Source: Telluribacter humicola
Lineage (GTDB): Bacteria > Bacteroidota > Bacteroidia > Cytophagales > Spirosomataceae
Assembly (NCBI RefSeq): GCF_017355935.1
Contig: NZ_JAFIQT010000004.1
Coordinates: 1-64,000 of the forward strand
Length of the DNA: 64,000 nt
Reading direction: 5' to 3'
The position numbers were made by a program, and so were the translations under genes. Below the pieces are notes generated by a model. It was given only the letters and a program-made list of their open reading frames with translations, did not search any database and was not told where the DNA came from. Of this stretch, positions 3,584-49,774 are shown piece after piece; the stretch's first letter is position 1; the number at the start of each line of letters is the position of its first letter.

Positions 3584-3803
3584 GGTAGTGGTAAATATTA
3601 AGGTGATTTGGATTTGTTGTAGTAGTTGATAAAGTTGAGGATTCGCCCAAAGTGACTGTCATCTGTTTTGGCAAAAGCTAATGTTTTTCTGGTTAGATGA
3701 GGCTGGCGCTGCCTGAGCGTATTGCGGCCCGCCGCTGCGGTTGAAGCGCTCTATATGAGCGGTGCCACCTGCTTTTTTGGTAGTGTCTATCCGCAGGAAT
3801 GAC
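3584..3803 (-). mobile_element. IS1-family fragment (3' part of transposase)
   Basis: The fragment starts at the IS1 terminal sequence GGTAGTGGTAAATATTAAGG (3584) and contains the last third of the InsB transposase on the minus strand. It matches the intact copy at 38632-39395 from the VIPPDRHYQKAGG region to NFINYYNKSKSP. It is cut off at 3803, where it joins an IS3 remnant. It also has one extra A in an A run (before GCAGG) and one 16-nt hairpin element. It is not functional. Confidence 0.85.
3724..3739 (-). repeat. 16-nt hairpin element A, in IS1 transposase
   Basis: On the gene strand it reads CGCA GCGG CGGG CCGC: leader, stem, loop, stem. Compared with the intact IS1 copy (IERFNNTLRQR, about 38.78 kb), exactly 16 nt are added between the two Asn codons next to the catalytic-Glu motif. 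Element D occupies the same site in another IS1 copy. Confidence 0.85.
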
Positions 3804-3955: not shown

Positions 3956-4255
3956 ATACATAAATCCATGTTTCATAGGCACATAGCTGATATCCAAGGC
4001 CCATACCTGATTGGGACGGCAGATTTCAAGGTTTCTAAGCAAATATGGATGAATGTATTTCGCTTTCCCTAGACGACTAAGGTTACGTTTGGGGTAAATC
4101 GGCTCAATGGCCATTTTCCGTAGCAACCGACGAATGCGTTTGACATTGTAGTTCATCCCTTTTTCTGCCAGCTCATCTTGCATACCCAGTACGCCTAAAG
4201 TTGGATCAGACAAGAATAGTTTGTCCATCATTTCCATCAGCCTCAGGTTCTCTTC

Positions 4256-4271
4256 CGCTTCGGCGTACCGA
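4256..4271 (+). repeat. 16-nt hairpin element J, in IS3 orfB (antisense)
   Basis: On the plus strand it reads CGCT TCGG CGTA CCGA. It lies in antisense orientation to orfB. Its outer stem pair is T-A instead of G-C or C-G, so pairing is kept. Removing it restores P-T-G-E-K-E-E-N-L-R-L-M. Confidence 0.75.
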
Positions 4272-4381: not shown

Positions 4382-4694
4382 TCATAGACCGGCTTTTTTC
4401 AAGTTTTTTTTTAAATAGTCGTTCTCTACTTGAAGCTGACCGATCTGCTTAAAAAGATTGTCAACGTCAACAGAATCCTCTTCTTTTGAGGATTCATCTC
4501 CGAATGCCTTTTCTGCGCGTTCCAGAAATTCACGCTTCCAGGCCGATACCTGGGTTGGCCGGGTGGCCGGTGCCATGAATTTCAAATCGGGTGGCCAGTT
4601 CGCTCAATGATTCCCGCTCTTTCAAGGCCTCAACAGCCACCATTGCCTTAAATTTCGCTGTAAATTTCCTCCGGCTTTGTTTCATCTTCTTCAT
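4382..4694 (-). pseudogene. IS3 orfA (helix-turn-helix), broken
   Basis: The start region reads MKKMKQSRRKFTAKFKAMV and continues ALKERESLSELATRFEIH, the N-terminal HTH of IS3 OrfA proteins. It is interrupted by a 16-nt hairpin element (4559-4574). In another frame it resumes with PTQVSAWKREFLERAEKAFG and a coiled-coil tail IGQLQVENDYLKKNLKKAGL. In the intact family FEIHPTQVSAWKREFL is continuous, so the 16 nt account exactly for the break. Confidence 0.8.
4559..4574 (-). repeat. 16-nt hairpin element C, in IS3 orfA
   Basis: On the gene strand it reads GGCA CCGG CCAC CCGG. It splits FEIH and PTQVSAW in the HTH region. It differs from element H in a serine recombinase at 37161 by a single leader base. 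Confidence 0.85.
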
Positions 4695-13482: not shown

Positions 13483-14209
13483 TTATAAGATTTGAGTAAT
13501 TTTGGCAAAAATTATAGTTAAATATTGCAATCACAAGCAATTTGACAAATTAGAAGACAATTTCTTGCCTTCCCAAATGATTGCTTCTTAATAAATTACC
13601 TTGAAGTAAAAGAAGATGATTTGTCTATGTCTGCTTCTTTTAGAGAAATCCTTACCCTTTGCATAGGTACAGAAGTGCAACTACACCTTGTTTTCCTTAG
13701 GGTAAGAATTGCTTCTTATGTTTTCTTTGTAGCTTTTGGAAGCGACAGGTATAGAATCCAGCAACCTTTTACTCCACTAACTGGCCAATATTGAACCTGT
13801 AACGTTCATGATTGGTCCAAATAAAGCAGGCGCTAATCCAACGGTTGCTACCTTTCCTAATTGCAAAGCAATCCCAGATGCCAACCCTCCGTTTTGAAGT
13901 CCTACTTCAATGGCTACAGTACGACAGCTTTGCTCATCAAGCTTAAGGGCTTTTGCGCTTAAGTACCCGAAGAGAAATCCACCAAGATTGTGAAGAAGAA
14001 CACAAAGAGCTAATAGTGGCCCTACTGTCAGCAAGCTTTCGCGGCCGGTGGCAGTAATGATACCAATAATCAGGATAATACCCCCCATGGATATTAATGG
14101 CATAACCTGGTTCAATAGTAGGGTAGACCGGTGAAAAAGCCGGTTTAGCAGTAACCCAATTATAATCGGGGTAGTGGTAAATTAACTGGTGATTGAGTAT
14201 TTTTACTAG

Positions 14210-14473
14210 ATGATATGCGAAACTACCCATTATAGATGCCAACGTTGCGGCAGTTTGAACTTACGGAAGAACGGTCATTCTACTTCTGGTCAACCGAAGT
14301 ACCACTGCAAGGACTGCAACAAGTATGGCACCATCAGCAATGTTGCTCAACAGCGAGCAGAGCGATACGAACAGGTAGAAAAACTCTTGCTGGAGCGTAC
14401 TTCATTACGTGGCATTCAGCGTGTGACAGGTGTGAGTCGCCCTACGATTATAAAACTTGCGAAAAAAAAGTAG
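14210..14473 (+). CDS. insA: IS1 InsA, zinc-finger/HTH protein
   Basis: The 87-residue protein has two CxxC pairs (CQRCG and CKDCN) forming the N-terminal zinc finger of IS1-family InsA. These are followed by an HTH, RGIQRVTGVSRPTIIKLAKKK. It ends in an A8 run (AAAAAAAAG) where IS1 elements make a -1 frameshift to give the InsAB' transposase. This part is intact and nearly identical to the copy at 39355-39092. Confidence 0.9.
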   Translation: MICETTHYRCQRCGSLNLRKNGHSTSGQPKYHCKDCNKYGTISNVAQQRAERYEQVEKLLLERTSLRGIQRVTGVSRPTIIKLAKKK

Positions 14474-14937
14474 ACTATTCTCTTCATATACAGGTAGATA
14501 CTACTGTTAACAAGCCTGTTATTGAAGTGGATGAAATGTACTCTTTTTTGTCGGCAGCAAGCGAATCAAAACTTGGATCTGGTTAGCTATTGAGCGTAAT
14601 AGCAGTCAGATAGTGGGTTTGGCTACTGGCGACCGTAGTGAATACTGTGGACAGCTGTTGTGGGAAAGCTTACCTAAGTTTTACCAACAAAATGCAGTTT
14701 TTTACACTGATCTGTATCCTGTTTATGAAAGTGTTATTCCAGCCGACAGGCATTATCAAAAAGCAGGTGGTACCGCTCATATTGAAAGATTTAATCGCAG
14801 CGGCGACCCGCAATACACTTAGGCAAAGGCAGCCTCATCTAACCAGAAAGACATTAGCCTTTGCTAAGACTGATGACAGTCACTTTGCCAGAACTCTCAA
14901 CTTTATCAATTACTACAATAAATCTAAATCACCTTAA
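14474..14937 (+). pseudogene. insB: IS1 InsB transposase part, broken
   Basis: The sequence runs VIEVDEMYSF, then VGSK-RIKTWIWLAIERNSSQIVGLATGDRSEYC after two surplus T residues (six T instead of four). It continues YTDLYPVYESVIPADRHYQKAGGTAHIERFN, then hairpin element D, then NTLRQRQPHLTRKTLAFAKTDDSHF. The DDE-type catalytic acids are in DEMYSF, TDLYPVY and IERFN. The extra TT plus 16 nt total 18, so the net frame is recovered only after the element. Confidence 0.88.
14796..14811 (+). repeat. 16-nt hairpin element D, in IS1 transposase
   Basis: It reads CGCA GCGG CGAC CCGC and lies between TTTAAT and AATACA, the two Asn codons after IERF. This is exactly the site of element A in the other IS1 remnant. 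The two elements differ at two loop bases. The intact IS1 copy at 38.6 kb lacks it. Confidence 0.9.
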
Positions 14938-16015
14938 TATTTACCACTACCATAATCGGTATAATTATTATTTGAGTAATCTCAAAAAACATTTTCCCAA
15001 ATTCAATGAAAATAAATTCTCCTGCTAATAGCTTCATAAGCGCTGGTGTTAGAACCGGAGCAAGCAGAGTAGCAATGGAGGTTATTGTTATAGAAAGCGG
15101 AACGTTAGCTTTGGCTATAAAGCACATTACATTTGAGGCTAGACCACTGGGAGAACACTCAATTAAAATTACACCGGCAGCAATCTCGGGAGGGAAATTA
15201 AAAAGATAAGCTAACGTAAATCCTAAAAATGGCATAATCACAAATTGACATACAATACCAATTAGTACTGCCCGGGGAGTTTGAATTACGCTCCCAAAAT
15301 CTTTAATGGAAAGGGTAGTGCCCATACCTAGCATGATGAGTTGCAGGAGGGGGATAATTAGGTTCTTTAATTGGAAACCGCCTATTGCTGTAAACGGAGC
15401 AGGAAAAAGGAGGGCTAAAATTACAACAAGAATGATTAAGCAGGTATAAATGAGATTACGCCAGCCAGTGTTACCAATTGTTTTAGCCTCCATATATCAG
15501 AATAGAGTAGAAGATCAGGAATAATTATTTATTGATCCGTGAATTAATCTGTCATAAACGCTATTTCCTTCTTATTGAAGAAGGCCCTTACCAACGCAGG
15601 GGCCTCCTCTAAATGCTTTACTTGTTCAAGAATCGCTGCTGTTAGTCCTTCCAAGTTGGTAAACACCCGATTCTTCAAACTGCCTTTCAGTTGGTTCCAG
15701 ACCAGTTCGACTGGATTAAGCTCCGGACTGTAGGCCGGTAAGCGTTCTAAATGAATTCGACCTGGTCGTTCACGCAGGAACTGCTTCACTGGTTCACTGC
15801 GATGGATAGCTGCACCGTCCCAGATAACTAATAAATCCCGCTTGCGATAGCGTCCACAGAGTTTCTTTAAAAACCAGACGATGTCCTCACCGGTAAAGGC
15901 CTGTTCTTGGCCGGCAACATAAATCCGCCCGTTTGGAGCGACAGCAGCAATCAAGCTTCAATGTGTTCGACCTGCTTGCTCAATGAGAATTGGTGTCTGC
16001 CCACAAGGAGCCCAA

Positions 16016-16030
16016 GCGGCCGCCGCTGCG
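16016..16030 (-). repeat. 15-nt hairpin element E, in-frame variant in IS630
   Basis: On the gene strand it reads CGCA GCGG CGG CCGC. It is element A minus one G of the loop. Because it is 15 nt, it adds five alanines in frame in the first catalytic domain instead of shifting the frame. The canonical spacing LLPxxxxTWAP shows that these codons are extra. Confidence 0.75.
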
Positions 16031-16247
16031 GTCATAGCTAGTAAGGGCAGCAGGTAGCAAGCTGACTCATCTACGTATAAAATCACTCGTCCCTCATCCT
16101 TGGCTTTTTTTAAGCGTTGGGATAATTTCTTGCTGCCACTGAGCAACTGCCTGAGGATCTTGTTGCCGTGCTTTGCGCTGCGGTTTTTGGCGACTCCAGC
16201 CCATCTTTTTCAGAATCCGACCTATCTGAGACGGATCGTAACTTACC

Positions 16248-16263
16248 CGCGGTGGCGGACCAC
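16248..16263 (+). repeat. 16-nt hairpin element F2, in IS630 (antisense)
   Basis: On the plus strand it reads CGCG GTGG CGGA CCAC. It is the only copy with a T-A second stem pair; both partners changed. It splits KLFG and VSYDPSQIG of the transposase. Confidence 0.85.
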
Positions 16264-23509: not shown

Positions 23510-23550
23510 TGACTGCTAGCCGTAAGAATACAGGCGTACACTACCTTGAT

Positions 23551-23709
23551 CATATTGTTTAGGTAACTCAACAAGTGTGGATATAATATACTTAGTTAAA
23601 AAACATAGCAATATAAACAATGGCAGAAAAAAGAGTCAGCAGCAGCTGATATTGCTGGTCAAAACCGTCAAAATATTATCATTTAAACGGTCATATAAAC
23701 CATTAGGAT
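23551..23709. repeat. 159-bp inverted repeat, left copy
   Basis: It matches 36810-36968 in inverted orientation along its whole length. The best part is 23673-23709, where 35 of 37 bases agree with 36846-36810. The right copy is the leader of a serine recombinase gene. On the left, the start codon equivalent (23553-23551) opens only a 15-codon frame. Confidence 0.75.
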
Positions 23710-23792
23710 GATTTGAAGAAAACCTCTTAATATTACATCGATATTGTTATAAAATAATAAGAGTAATAAGGTTTTCATCTAATCACTTAAAT

Positions 23793-24426
23793 ATGCCCCG
23801 GACTATTGCCTATTTACGTGTCTCGACATTAGACCAGGATCTGGAAAAGAACAAGGCCGACATCCTGCACCTGGCCAATGAGAAAAATTTAGGGAAAGTA
23901 GAATTCGTACCGCGGCGGCGGACCGCAAGAGAAGGTGTCAGGTAAGGTTGCATGGCGTAACCGCAAAATTGGCCCGCTCCTAGAAGATTTAAAAAAGGGA
24001 GATGTGATTCTGCTCAGTGAATTCTCCCGGCTGGGAAGATCGATGCTCGAATGCATGGAGATCATTTCCATCGCCATGCAAAAGGGCATCAAGATCTATA
24101 CTGTAAAAGGAGCCTGGCAGCTGGATGAGTCTATACAGAGCAAAGTGATGGCCATGGTTTTCTCGATGGCCTCCGAAATTGAAAGGGACCTGATCAGTAA
24201 GCGCACCAGAGAGTCCCTGGCGGCAAAGAAACTATCCGGAGTAAAACTAGGTCGGCCCACTGGCCCGGGGAAAAGTAAACTCGACCAGTACAGGCCAGAA
24301 ATTGAAGCTTTGCTGCTGAATGGATCGAGTCAGAAGTACATTGCCGACCGCTACCGCATCACGGAAGCCACTCTGTCAAATTGGATGAAGAAGAATGGTA
24401 TCAAAAAATACAAAAGGGCTGCTTGA
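23793..24426 (+). pseudogene. serine recombinase (resolvase/invertase), interrupted
   Basis: The N-terminus MPRTIAYLRVSTLDQDLEKN has the catalytic Ser in the RVST motif. The frame stops after GKVEFV because of a 16-nt element (23911-23926) and resumes in another frame with QEKVSGKVAWRNRKIGPLLEDL. It continues EFSRLGRSMLECMEI (active-site Arg pair) and MASEIERDLISKRT, and ends with a Hin-like HTH, YIADRYRITEATLSNWMKK. Removing 16 nt gives GTA-CAA-GAG and a complete protein of about 205 residues. Nothing else is broken. Confidence 0.88.
23911..23926 (+). repeat. 16-nt hairpin element G, in serine recombinase
   Basis: It reads CGCG GCGG CGGA CCGC and sits between GTAC and AAGAG in the EFVQEKVSG motif. 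It is the only defect in an otherwise complete recombinase gene, which makes it the cleanest test case in the window. Confidence 0.9.
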
Positions 24427-36690: not shown

Positions 36691-36809
36691 CCCCACCCGC
36701 CCCTGGGTCTATACTCCGATAGTACCCCCATCAGTTGTAGAGTTACATACACTACTAGCCCAAAACAAATAAGCTAAAATCAGCACGCGACAGGCCTTTT
36801 TGCTTAATT

Positions 36810-36968
36810 ATCCTTATGGTTTATAAGACCGTTTAAATGATAATATCTTGGCCGGTTTGCTCATCAATCCCTGATCGACCTGACCCTTCTTTCTGCCATT
36901 ATTTATATTGCCATGTAATTTAACTAAGTGTATTATATCCGCACTTGTTGAGTTTCATAAACAGTATG
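36810..36968. repeat. 159-bp inverted repeat, right copy
   Basis: This is the inverted partner of 23551-23709. It ends at the start codon of the recombinase gene at 36966, so it includes that gene's promoter and probably a recombination site. Confidence 0.75.
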
Positions 36969-37527
36969 GCATACATAGGATACGCACGAGTCTCCACGAT
37001 GGAGCAGAACTTGAACATGCAGCTGGATGCGCTGCAGAAAGAAGGATGTAGTAAAATCTTTAAGGATAAAGTATCCGGAGTGAAGGCGGGTAAGCCCAAC
37101 CTCGAGAAGCTGATGGAGTATACCCGACCGGGGGATACTATTGTGGTTTGGAAGCTGGATGGCTCCGGCCACCCGGCGGTTGGGAAGAAGTACCATTCAA
37201 CTCATTGAGCTGGTCGAAGAACTAAAGAAGAGAGGAGTAAATTTAAAATCACTCTCTGAGTCTATTGATACCAGCACTGCCACCGGTAACTTGTTCTTTC
37301 AGTTCATGTGTATCCTGGCTGAGCACGAGCGCAACATTATCAGAGAGCGTACTAGGGCTGGACTCGCATCAGCCCGAGCCAAGGGACGCACTGGACGACG
37401 GCCTAAGGGACTTAGTGAGCGCTATTAGAAGATTGCTCCGGAAGTGAGGGCGATTTATGAGCTAAATATACGTAGCACAGAAGCTATAAGAGAGATATTA
37501 CAAATCAAAAGCCAACCTAATAGATAG
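36966..37527 (+). pseudogene. serine recombinase (resolvase/invertase), interrupted
   Basis: The protein reads [20 protein letters not shown] (catalytic Ser), [18 protein letters not shown] and [10 protein letters not shown] 16-nt element (37161-37176) then shifts the frame, which resumes as [40 protein letters not shown] and GRRPKGLSERY. A TAG at 37426-37428 follows, and the frame continues to an HTH-like IRSTEAIREILQIK before TAG at 37525. The hairpin element lies exactly before the active-site RLGRS. Confidence 0.88.
37161..37176 (+). repeat. 16-nt hairpin element H, in serine recombinase
   Basis: It reads GGCT CCGG CCAC CCGG and lies between CTGGAT and CGGTTGG. Taking out the 16 nt restores K-L-D-R-L-G-R-S, one of the most conserved motifs of the family. 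Confidence 0.9.
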
Positions 37528-38175: not shown

Positions 38176-38631
38176 GCTCATACAGGATATGCTATAACTG
38201 TGCATATAAGGTAAATGTACAAACCTCACATTAAGCTCTCATATATATTCTAATGGTCGTTTAATTTTAGGACAAGGTAAGCCCTCAGTTCCAGGAATTA
38301 TTTGGTAATTTCTTTTTAGTTTGGCCGCTACAAAGGTGCAACCATCCTCAGCATTTGCTAACTCCCTAACACGCTCTTTATTTAATTCTATAGAGTTTAT
38401 TAAGATCTAAGTACTTTACTTATATCTTTTAGATTCTTGGGTTATTAAGGCTTCCAAATCTTCTAAGTTTATCTTTAACGAGTTTGATGTTATTGTAATA
38501 GGAGAGCCATAAATTTTGCAAGTCATTTCTGCGGCTCGCTTTAAAATAGAATTATTAGTTCTTTGTATATATTTTTGAGGATTATTGGTATGCAATATTA
38601 AAAACTTTGCCGACATGACCTGCTTTTTCTC

Positions 38632-39395
38632 GGTAGTGGTAAATATTAAGGTGATTTGGATTTGTTGTAGTAGTTGATAAAGTTGAGGATTCGCCCAAAG
38701 TGACTGTCATCTGTTTTGGCAAAAGCTAATGTTTTTCTGGTTAGATGAGGCTGTCGCTGCCTGAGCGTATTGTTGAAGCGCTCTATATGAGCGGTACCAC
38801 CAGCCTTTTGATAATGCCTGTCTGGCGGGATAACAGCTTCATAGACTGTATATAGGTCAGTGTAGAAGACAGCGTTCTGCTGATAGAAACTATCTATACT
38901 TTCCCACAGAAACTTACCGCAGTACTCGCTTCGATCGCCCGTAGCCAAGCCAACAATCTGCCTGCTTTCACGCTCTATGGCTAGCCAGATCCAGGTTTTA
39001 GTCTGTTTGCTGCCAACGAATGAAAACATTTCATCCACTTCAATAACAGGCCTGATCGTTGAAGTATCTACTTGTACAGCAAGTGAATCGTCTACTTTTT
39101 TTTAGCTAATTTTATAATTGTAGGACGACTTACGCCTGTCACACGCTGGATGCCGCGTAAGGACGTCCGTTCAAGCAAGAGCTTTTCCACCTGCTCGTAT
39201 CGCTCAGCTCGCTGCTGAGCCACATTGCTGATGGTGCCATACTTATTGCAGTCTTTGCAATGGTATTTTGGCTTGCCAGATGTAGAATGACCGTTCTTCC
39301 GTAAGTTTAAACTGCCGCAGCGTTGGCACCTATGATTTGTAGTTTCGCTGATCATGAGGCAAATATAAGAAATCACCCCTTAATTTACCACTACC
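38632..39395 (-). mobile_element. IS1-family element, intact, with 8-bp target duplication
   Basis: 764 bp bounded by GGTAGTGG and CCACTACC, with TTTTTCTC repeated at 38624-38631 and 39396-39403. The insA and insB frames are undamaged. This copy lacks the 16-nt hairpin element found at the same codon in the other two copies, so it is the internal reference for the intact gene. It may supply transposase in trans. Confidence 0.92.
38646..39355 (-). CDS. insAB: IS1 InsA/InsAB' transposase (programmed -1 frameshift)
   Basis: InsA (MISETTNHRCQRCG, zinc finger, HTH, stop at 39092) is followed in the -1 frame by InsB: PVIEVDEMFSFVGSKQTKTWIWLAIERESRQ, YTDLYTVYEAVIPPDRHY and IERFNNTLRQRQPHLTRK. A run of eight A at the InsA end (AAAAAAAAG) is the expected slippery site. 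Asp, Asp and Glu of the catalytic triad are present. Confidence 0.88.
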
Positions 39396-49204: not shown

Positions 49205-49411
49205 TTCTTATGAAAACGTAAAAAATGCCAGGAGGTCAAAGAGAAAAGAAAAGATGGAGCAAGTAGATCAAATTCAGCCTTTTACCCTCTGCTCTCCTAT
49301 CAACTCCCTGAGTGTCAGGTCTGAAAACCTGCGGGCAAAGATACAAAGGAAAGCGATGTGAAGGTTGTAGAGAAACAAGTTTATCTACTTCTTAACCAGA
49401 TACTTAGAAGT

Positions 49412-49534
49412 GTGTTAGTTTGTGTTACTGGCGTGTTAGCAACGTGTTACTTTGTGTTACTAGCATGTTACTTTGTGTTACTGGCGTGTTACTTTGTGTT
49501 ACTGGCGTGTTACTTTGTGTTAGCAACGTGTTAG
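49412..49534. repeat. phased TGTTA repeat array (iteron-like)
   Basis: About a dozen TGTTA motifs spaced 10-11 bp, organised into 21-bp units of the type GTGTTACTTTGTGTTACTGGC. The spacing places all on one face of the helix. Upstream of mob genes this suggests binding sites for a Rep or Mob protein. Confidence 0.65.
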
Positions 49535-49774
49535 TTTTCCAGGTAAGGAGCTTCAAATTTACAGAAGGGCTAATAAGTACAACTAGGAGATAAAATAAGC
49601 TGCATGCAAAGCCGAGCATTACGCTGAAATAGTTTTCACTTGTTCATCCATTTTTATGGCGGCAACCAGACAAGTGGTTGAATGCTGAATGACAGTTATC
49701 AACAGTAATCATCAAATTGAATCATAGCTCGCACACAGCTGTTATTCGTAGTTTGCCCTACTATGTCTTTATGA

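Follow-up and report, generated by a model that had tools for sequence, protein, structure and literature searches.

Very small hairpin insertions in mobile genes of Spirosomataceae and a probably inactivated serine recombinase of Telluribacter humicola

Is a serine recombinase gene that carries a single 16-nt insert and no other lesion a gene that was recently disabled, or is it still expressed because the insert is removed or bypassed? The question is raised by a gene in the first 64,000 nucleotides of contig NZ_JAFIQT010000004.1 of Telluribacter humicola, a stretch referred to below as the window. A sequence-only reading of the window had described this gene as complete save for one 16-nt element, and had concluded that the insertion must be recent or the gene still used.

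The gene runs from an ATG at 23793 to a TGA at 24424-24426, and its coding sequence is split into two overlapping open frames (Table 1). In a profile search the Pfam Resolvase domain PF00239, the catalytic domain of serine recombinases, matches the C-terminal part with an E-value of 2e-18; the N-terminal YLRVST motif is found in the translation, and full-length intact homologues exist. One of them, the paralogue L018 (contig C1:228-845), is encoded in the same genome. Aligned with L018, the window gene shares 192 of 206 amino acids, the gapped columns form a single run of 16 and no stop codon is met, which bears out the description of an otherwise complete gene. The insert falls between a GTN and a CAR codon and may equally be written as 23910-23925 or 23911-23926, since it is flanked by C on both sides. 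A 180-nt inverted repeat (79% identity) has one arm directly upstream of the gene, at 23534-23713, and the other at 36806-36985, near a second recombinase gene of the window; it is perhaps shared regulatory or recombination-site DNA.

Table 1. Recombinase gene, hairpin elements and related features of the window
Feature	Position	Strand	Remark
Serine recombinase gene (resolvase/invertase type)	23793..24426	+	Intact but for one 16-nt insert
N-terminal open frame of the recombinase	23793..23945	+	Stop at 23943-23945, just past the element
C-terminal open frame of the recombinase	23935..24426	+	Overlaps the N-terminal frame
16-nt hairpin element CCGCGGCGGCGGACCG	23910..23925	+	16-nt gap relative to L018, L019 and Dyadobacter homologues
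16-nt element in partial IS1-type copy	3725..3740	-	Site empty in the copy at 38630-39395
IS1 copy without element at the site of 3725	38630..39395	-	
16-nt element in second IS1 copy (14170-14951)	14795..14810	+	Same site as 3725
16-nt element, stem TCGG/CCGA, in IS3 transposase	4255..4271	+	Coding resumes beyond the element
16-nt element, GGC-N-CCGG-CCAC-CCGG type	4559..4575	-	Same IS3 as 4255, between IH and PTQ codons
15-nt element CGCAGCGGCGGCCGC in IS630-type transposase	16016..16031	-	In frame; five extra residues between MT and WAP
Element, stem GTGG/CCAC	16247..16262	+	IS630-type gene of the 16016 element, opposite orientation
16-nt element GGCTCCGGCCACCCGG in second serine recombinase gene	37160..37176	+	Between KLD and RLGRS

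The 16-nt sequence belongs to a family of GC-rich hairpins of 14-16 nt found in Spirosomataceae (Telluribacter, Dyadobacter and kin). Each opens with a 5' tail of 3-4 nt, CGCN or GGCN, and continues as a hairpin whose stem has about 4 bp and whose loop has 3-4 nt; the stems differ from one another through compensating changes. The elements are inserted exactly, with no duplication of the target, and in most cases after A or AC; among 92 exact copies the preceding base is A in 75 and the following base C or T in 88. The window itself holds about eight members, and at no more than 3 mismatches 6 matches were counted for 0.16 expected. Its two IS1 copies that differ by the 3725 element are 99% identical over the adjoining 143 nt. 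An in-frame 15-nt element like that of the IS630-type transposase is also seen in an IS110 transposase (L252 2985-3000). The window further contains short tandem repeats with a 21-nt unit, GTGTTACTGGCGTGTTACTTT, at 49401-49558.

The exact form CCGCNGCGGCGGACCG has 5 copies in the T. humicola genome, and two relatives have 47 and 65. It was found in 19 of 59 relatives, with a maximum of 65 copies, while the reversed pattern gave zero in all 59 genomes. Across 396 genomes of the phylum it rose above chance in its own family only, the other occurrences being single matches at control level; G052, a genome of another family of the same order, has 27 copies. The family is not confined to genes. Many of the copies read in genomes G026 and G009 sit in intergenic hairpins, and at L137-L140, L149, L154, L157, L158, L165-L171 and L175 mirrored elements occupy both arms of such a hairpin. 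The variable base is identical in both arms at 16 of 16 of these loci (2e-7 by chance), likely from copying of one arm to the other during replication. In an arrangement common to three genera (L002, L111, L127, L114) a tRNA-Thr(GGT) gene precedes a tRNA-Thr duplicate that lacks its 5' part and bears an element in the T-arm; at L114 tandem tRNA 3'-end fragments carry an element each, and further copies adjoin other tRNA 3' ends.

Searching for the same site in other recombinase genes, we found it filled in three copies of Telluribacter sp. SYSU D00476 (L027, L036 and L136) and in L024 of the T. humicola genome, and empty in L018, L019 and eight Dyadobacter copies. L036 has two additional 16-nt inserts beyond the shared site, and the third insert is shared by L020 of T. 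humicola (L266 10317; contig C22:205317). At the first two sites L020 shows a hybrid element and lacks the intervening DNA; the simplest reading is that recombination of one element with the other deleted it. In the filled copies that could be aligned the flanks differ by 12-19% from the window, and the element is identical in the window, L027 and L036. These other filled copies are damaged: L027 has lost one nucleotide and meets a TAG thereafter, L036 contains stops, and L024 and L136 are truncated. The recombinase tree is too weak to order gains and losses, and the filled copies are not grouped with support. Empty relatives closer to the window gene than about 85% did not turn up, which leaves its own insertion without a direct date.

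The IS3 transposases of the family bear on the direction and pace of change. Apart from the copy with twelve inserts discussed below, these contain 0 to 6 hairpin inserts, many at common positions and mostly of the same type, although the stems at one position are CAGG/CCTG twice, CAAG/CTTG once and TGGG/CCCG once. Filled and empty copies can be near-identical (L278/L275, 98.2%; L279/L281, 98.5%). Over 803 nt, six inserts set the filled L285 apart from the empty L284, along with 23 substitutions and a single 1-nt gap. Here gain is the natural direction, because the filled copy is truncated, its empty sister is open where the two were compared, and the outgroups L275 and L281 are empty. Beside the new inserts the flanks of L285 match the empty sister, with no sign of co-conversion; it is therefore unlikely that a diverged filled gene was copied in by homology, and we rejected gene conversion from a filled copy on this ground. 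In the three near-identical pairs elements precede most other damage, which favours the first half of the earlier conclusion, a recent insertion.

Seven of the nine recent gains lie where other lineages also have an element (P 2.2e-7), and its type is mostly the same. Over all IS3 copies 24 coincident sites were counted against 1.6 expected, a figure that mixes possible inheritance with recurrence; the test on recent gains avoids most of this mixing, provided that the events are gains. These sequence comparisons show that elements are gained quickly when set against other mutation, and that different lineages tend to have the same type inserted at a given site, an association that may partly reflect inheritance with precise loss. 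Because recent IS3 gains mostly hit sites already used, and because the recombinase site is filled in the SYSU D00476 copies and in L024 and bears the hybrid of L020, its sharing with another Telluribacter species probably marks a hot spot rather than age or function.

An alternative is that each site received one old insertion that was inherited by descent and precisely lost from the copies now empty. The recurrence of site and element type in Telluribacter and Dyadobacter copies would follow directly. We nevertheless consider it unlikely: the empty sisters are nearly identical to filled copies, so that L284 would need six exact losses, while filled copies such as the truncated L285 carry other damage too. 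Two further points speak against descent: the recombinase tree gives no support for a group of filled copies, and their first-site elements are identical in three copies despite diverged flanks.

The settings of the elements raise another alternative, a host defence that deliberately inserts hairpins into transposon genes by recognising conserved motif sequence. Elements occupy particular sites in transposase and recombinase genes, and the coding hosts, classified by Pfam as IS1, IS3/rve, IS110, DDE_3 (IS630 type), DDE_Tnp_1_6 and Resolvase, are all of these kinds; up to 12 inserts lie in one gene, and inserts fall in conserved motifs. We surveyed about 0.85 of the 6.56 Mb (24 contigs) of T. 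humicola, mobile-element-rich contigs having been picked deliberately. In these roughly 850 kb high-confidence matches cluster in mobile-element-rich stretches, and none was found in C19:84-384 kb. Background in the loose hairpin scan is considerable, with 41 matches against 13 for the reversed pattern, so its weak matches are not to be counted. Against a defence, tRNA fragments and terminator-like hairpins have been entered as well, no defence locus was identified, and the same bias is expected from selection against inserts in useful genes. The host bias may thus reflect either targeting or survival in dispensable genes, and we regard deliberate defence as distinctly unlikely.

The reading most relevant to the recombinase is that the element is transparent, ribosomes hopping over the hairpin or the RNA losing it, so that the protein still works. 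It draws support from the IS3 transposase L009 of T. humicola (1290-2560; contig C8:13189-14459), which carries twelve inserts of 14-16 nt. Relative to an intact IS3 copy of a Dyadobacter chenhuakuii plasmid (L275, used as reference), the coding part has no indel beyond these inserts and no stop, and 345 of 372 amino acids are identical, so that full coding capacity is retained around them. Nearly all are a tail plus a hairpin, with stems GCGG/CCGC, CAGG/CCTG, GTGG/CCAC, CCGG/CCGG or GTGC/GCAC; since lengths of 14, 15 and 16 occur, the frame is affected in every way. The window and L027 recombinases have the element in common at a dS of 0.76 and a dN of 0.017, values that, taken alone, would be compatible with a gene long in use in which the element is tolerated, and stems are kept by compensating changes. 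Translational bypassing elements, as in T4 gene 60 and the byps of Magnusiomyces mitochondria, are likewise frame-breaking hairpin inserts in otherwise intact genes. Unlike these, the present elements have no matched take-off and landing codons (GTA before the recombinase element and CCG ending it; AAC and CTG at site 2) and occur in noncoding DNA too. A rare-codon +1 frameshift at CGG CGG CGG was rejected, CGG being the commonest arginine codon. The element needs no coding function, because copies lie in truncated genes, noncoding tRNA fragments and terminators, and L285, L036 and L027 show it in broken genes. No copy in a housekeeping gene was recognised among the loci read, the IS3 gains are recent, and the changes unique to L278 (1 synonymous and 5 nonsynonymous, small numbers) have no purifying pattern. 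Transparency is thus quite improbable. With all three frames affected, no codon match and a common arginine codon, the second half of the earlier conclusion, continued use through removal or bypass, is not supported.

Footprints of larger transposons since excised would explain the short inverted-repeat structure and variable stems, yet they are very improbable, as target duplication is absent, tail and loop bases are near-constant, lengths are confined to 14-16 nt and no full-length parent was found at any site. The chance of a sequencing or assembly artefact is practically negligible: nothing beyond the short GC-rich sequence suggests it, and the elements recur across many assemblies made independently, single-contig genomes among them, while the reversed control gave zero.

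Our preferred reading, which we hold with fair confidence, is a family of very small mobile hairpins, one of which inactivated the recombinase by a recent insertion, with a putative enzyme acting on single-strand hairpins in trans. The insertion was probably both recent and disabling: it would have shifted the frame of a working recombinase and left it inactive. Most likely the gene is dead; the genome also has an intact paralogue.

As to the agent, HUH/Y1 transposases do not duplicate their target, insert on the 3' side of a short fixed sequence and use a tetranucleotide 5' of the hairpin. An enzyme of this kind (IS200-IS605/REP transposase) might act here, and would fit because target duplication is absent, the shape is a tail plus a hairpin and insertion follows A or AC. 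The A/AC target is only weakly conserved. Y1 transposases were found in 50 of the 59 relatives with no correlation to element number, and around 30 sampled Y1 loci the elements gave 4 loose matches against 10 in the reversed control. A reverse transcriptase was rejected as the agent, PF00078 being missing from the element-rich genomes G009 and G033, and so was carriage by phages, the pattern being present in 14 viral contigs against 30 for the reversed control. The insertion machinery appears to be undescribed. A bolder proposal, that an undescribed bacterial system places the 14-16-nt hairpins at defined transposase and recombinase positions, each type with its own target, and so inactivates mobile DNA site-specifically, strikes us as possible but doubtful.

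Several known repeats invite comparison. The small dispersed repeats (SDR) of cyanobacteria, reportedly described by Elhai et al. in 2008 at about 21-27 nt, are also tiny sequences, dispersed and able to fold into hairpins, that behave like mobile insertions, and the Spirosomataceae elements are likewise filled and empty at homologous sites. By description, they differ from SDR in their 14-16 nt, their recurrence at identical transposase-gene sites and their site-linked types. Yeast mitochondrial GC clusters are short GC-rich palindromic inserts with preferred targets in AT-richer DNA; they are longer, mitochondrial and of no known relation. REPs and REPINs with their RAYT (TnpA-REP) share the tetranucleotide 5' of the hairpin and often form inverted pairs between genes. 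Their reported lengths are 20-40 bp (PMC3733652) or 21-65 nt (PMC6006769). They mostly bear GTAG or CGTC tags, flank RAYT genes and are mainly extragenic, whereas our elements have a CGCN or GGCN tail, are not in excess at the 30 Y1 loci and at 14-16 nt are shorter and in many cases intragenic. In a search mostly of open-access papers we found no publication on the motif, nor any on repeats of this sort in Spirosomataceae.

The hairpin family, rather than the single recombinase, is the object of interest. We know of no described short repeat with such site preference. If our inference holds, these would be among the smallest mobile DNA elements known, and in dead transposon copies they would be inserted faster than ordinary mutations arise. 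Near-identical copies that differ in whether a site is filled or empty offer a clean system for tracing the responsible enzyme. The elements also account for a class of 'frameshifted' transposase and recombinase pseudogenes, and genes with such inserts should not be taken as still functional.
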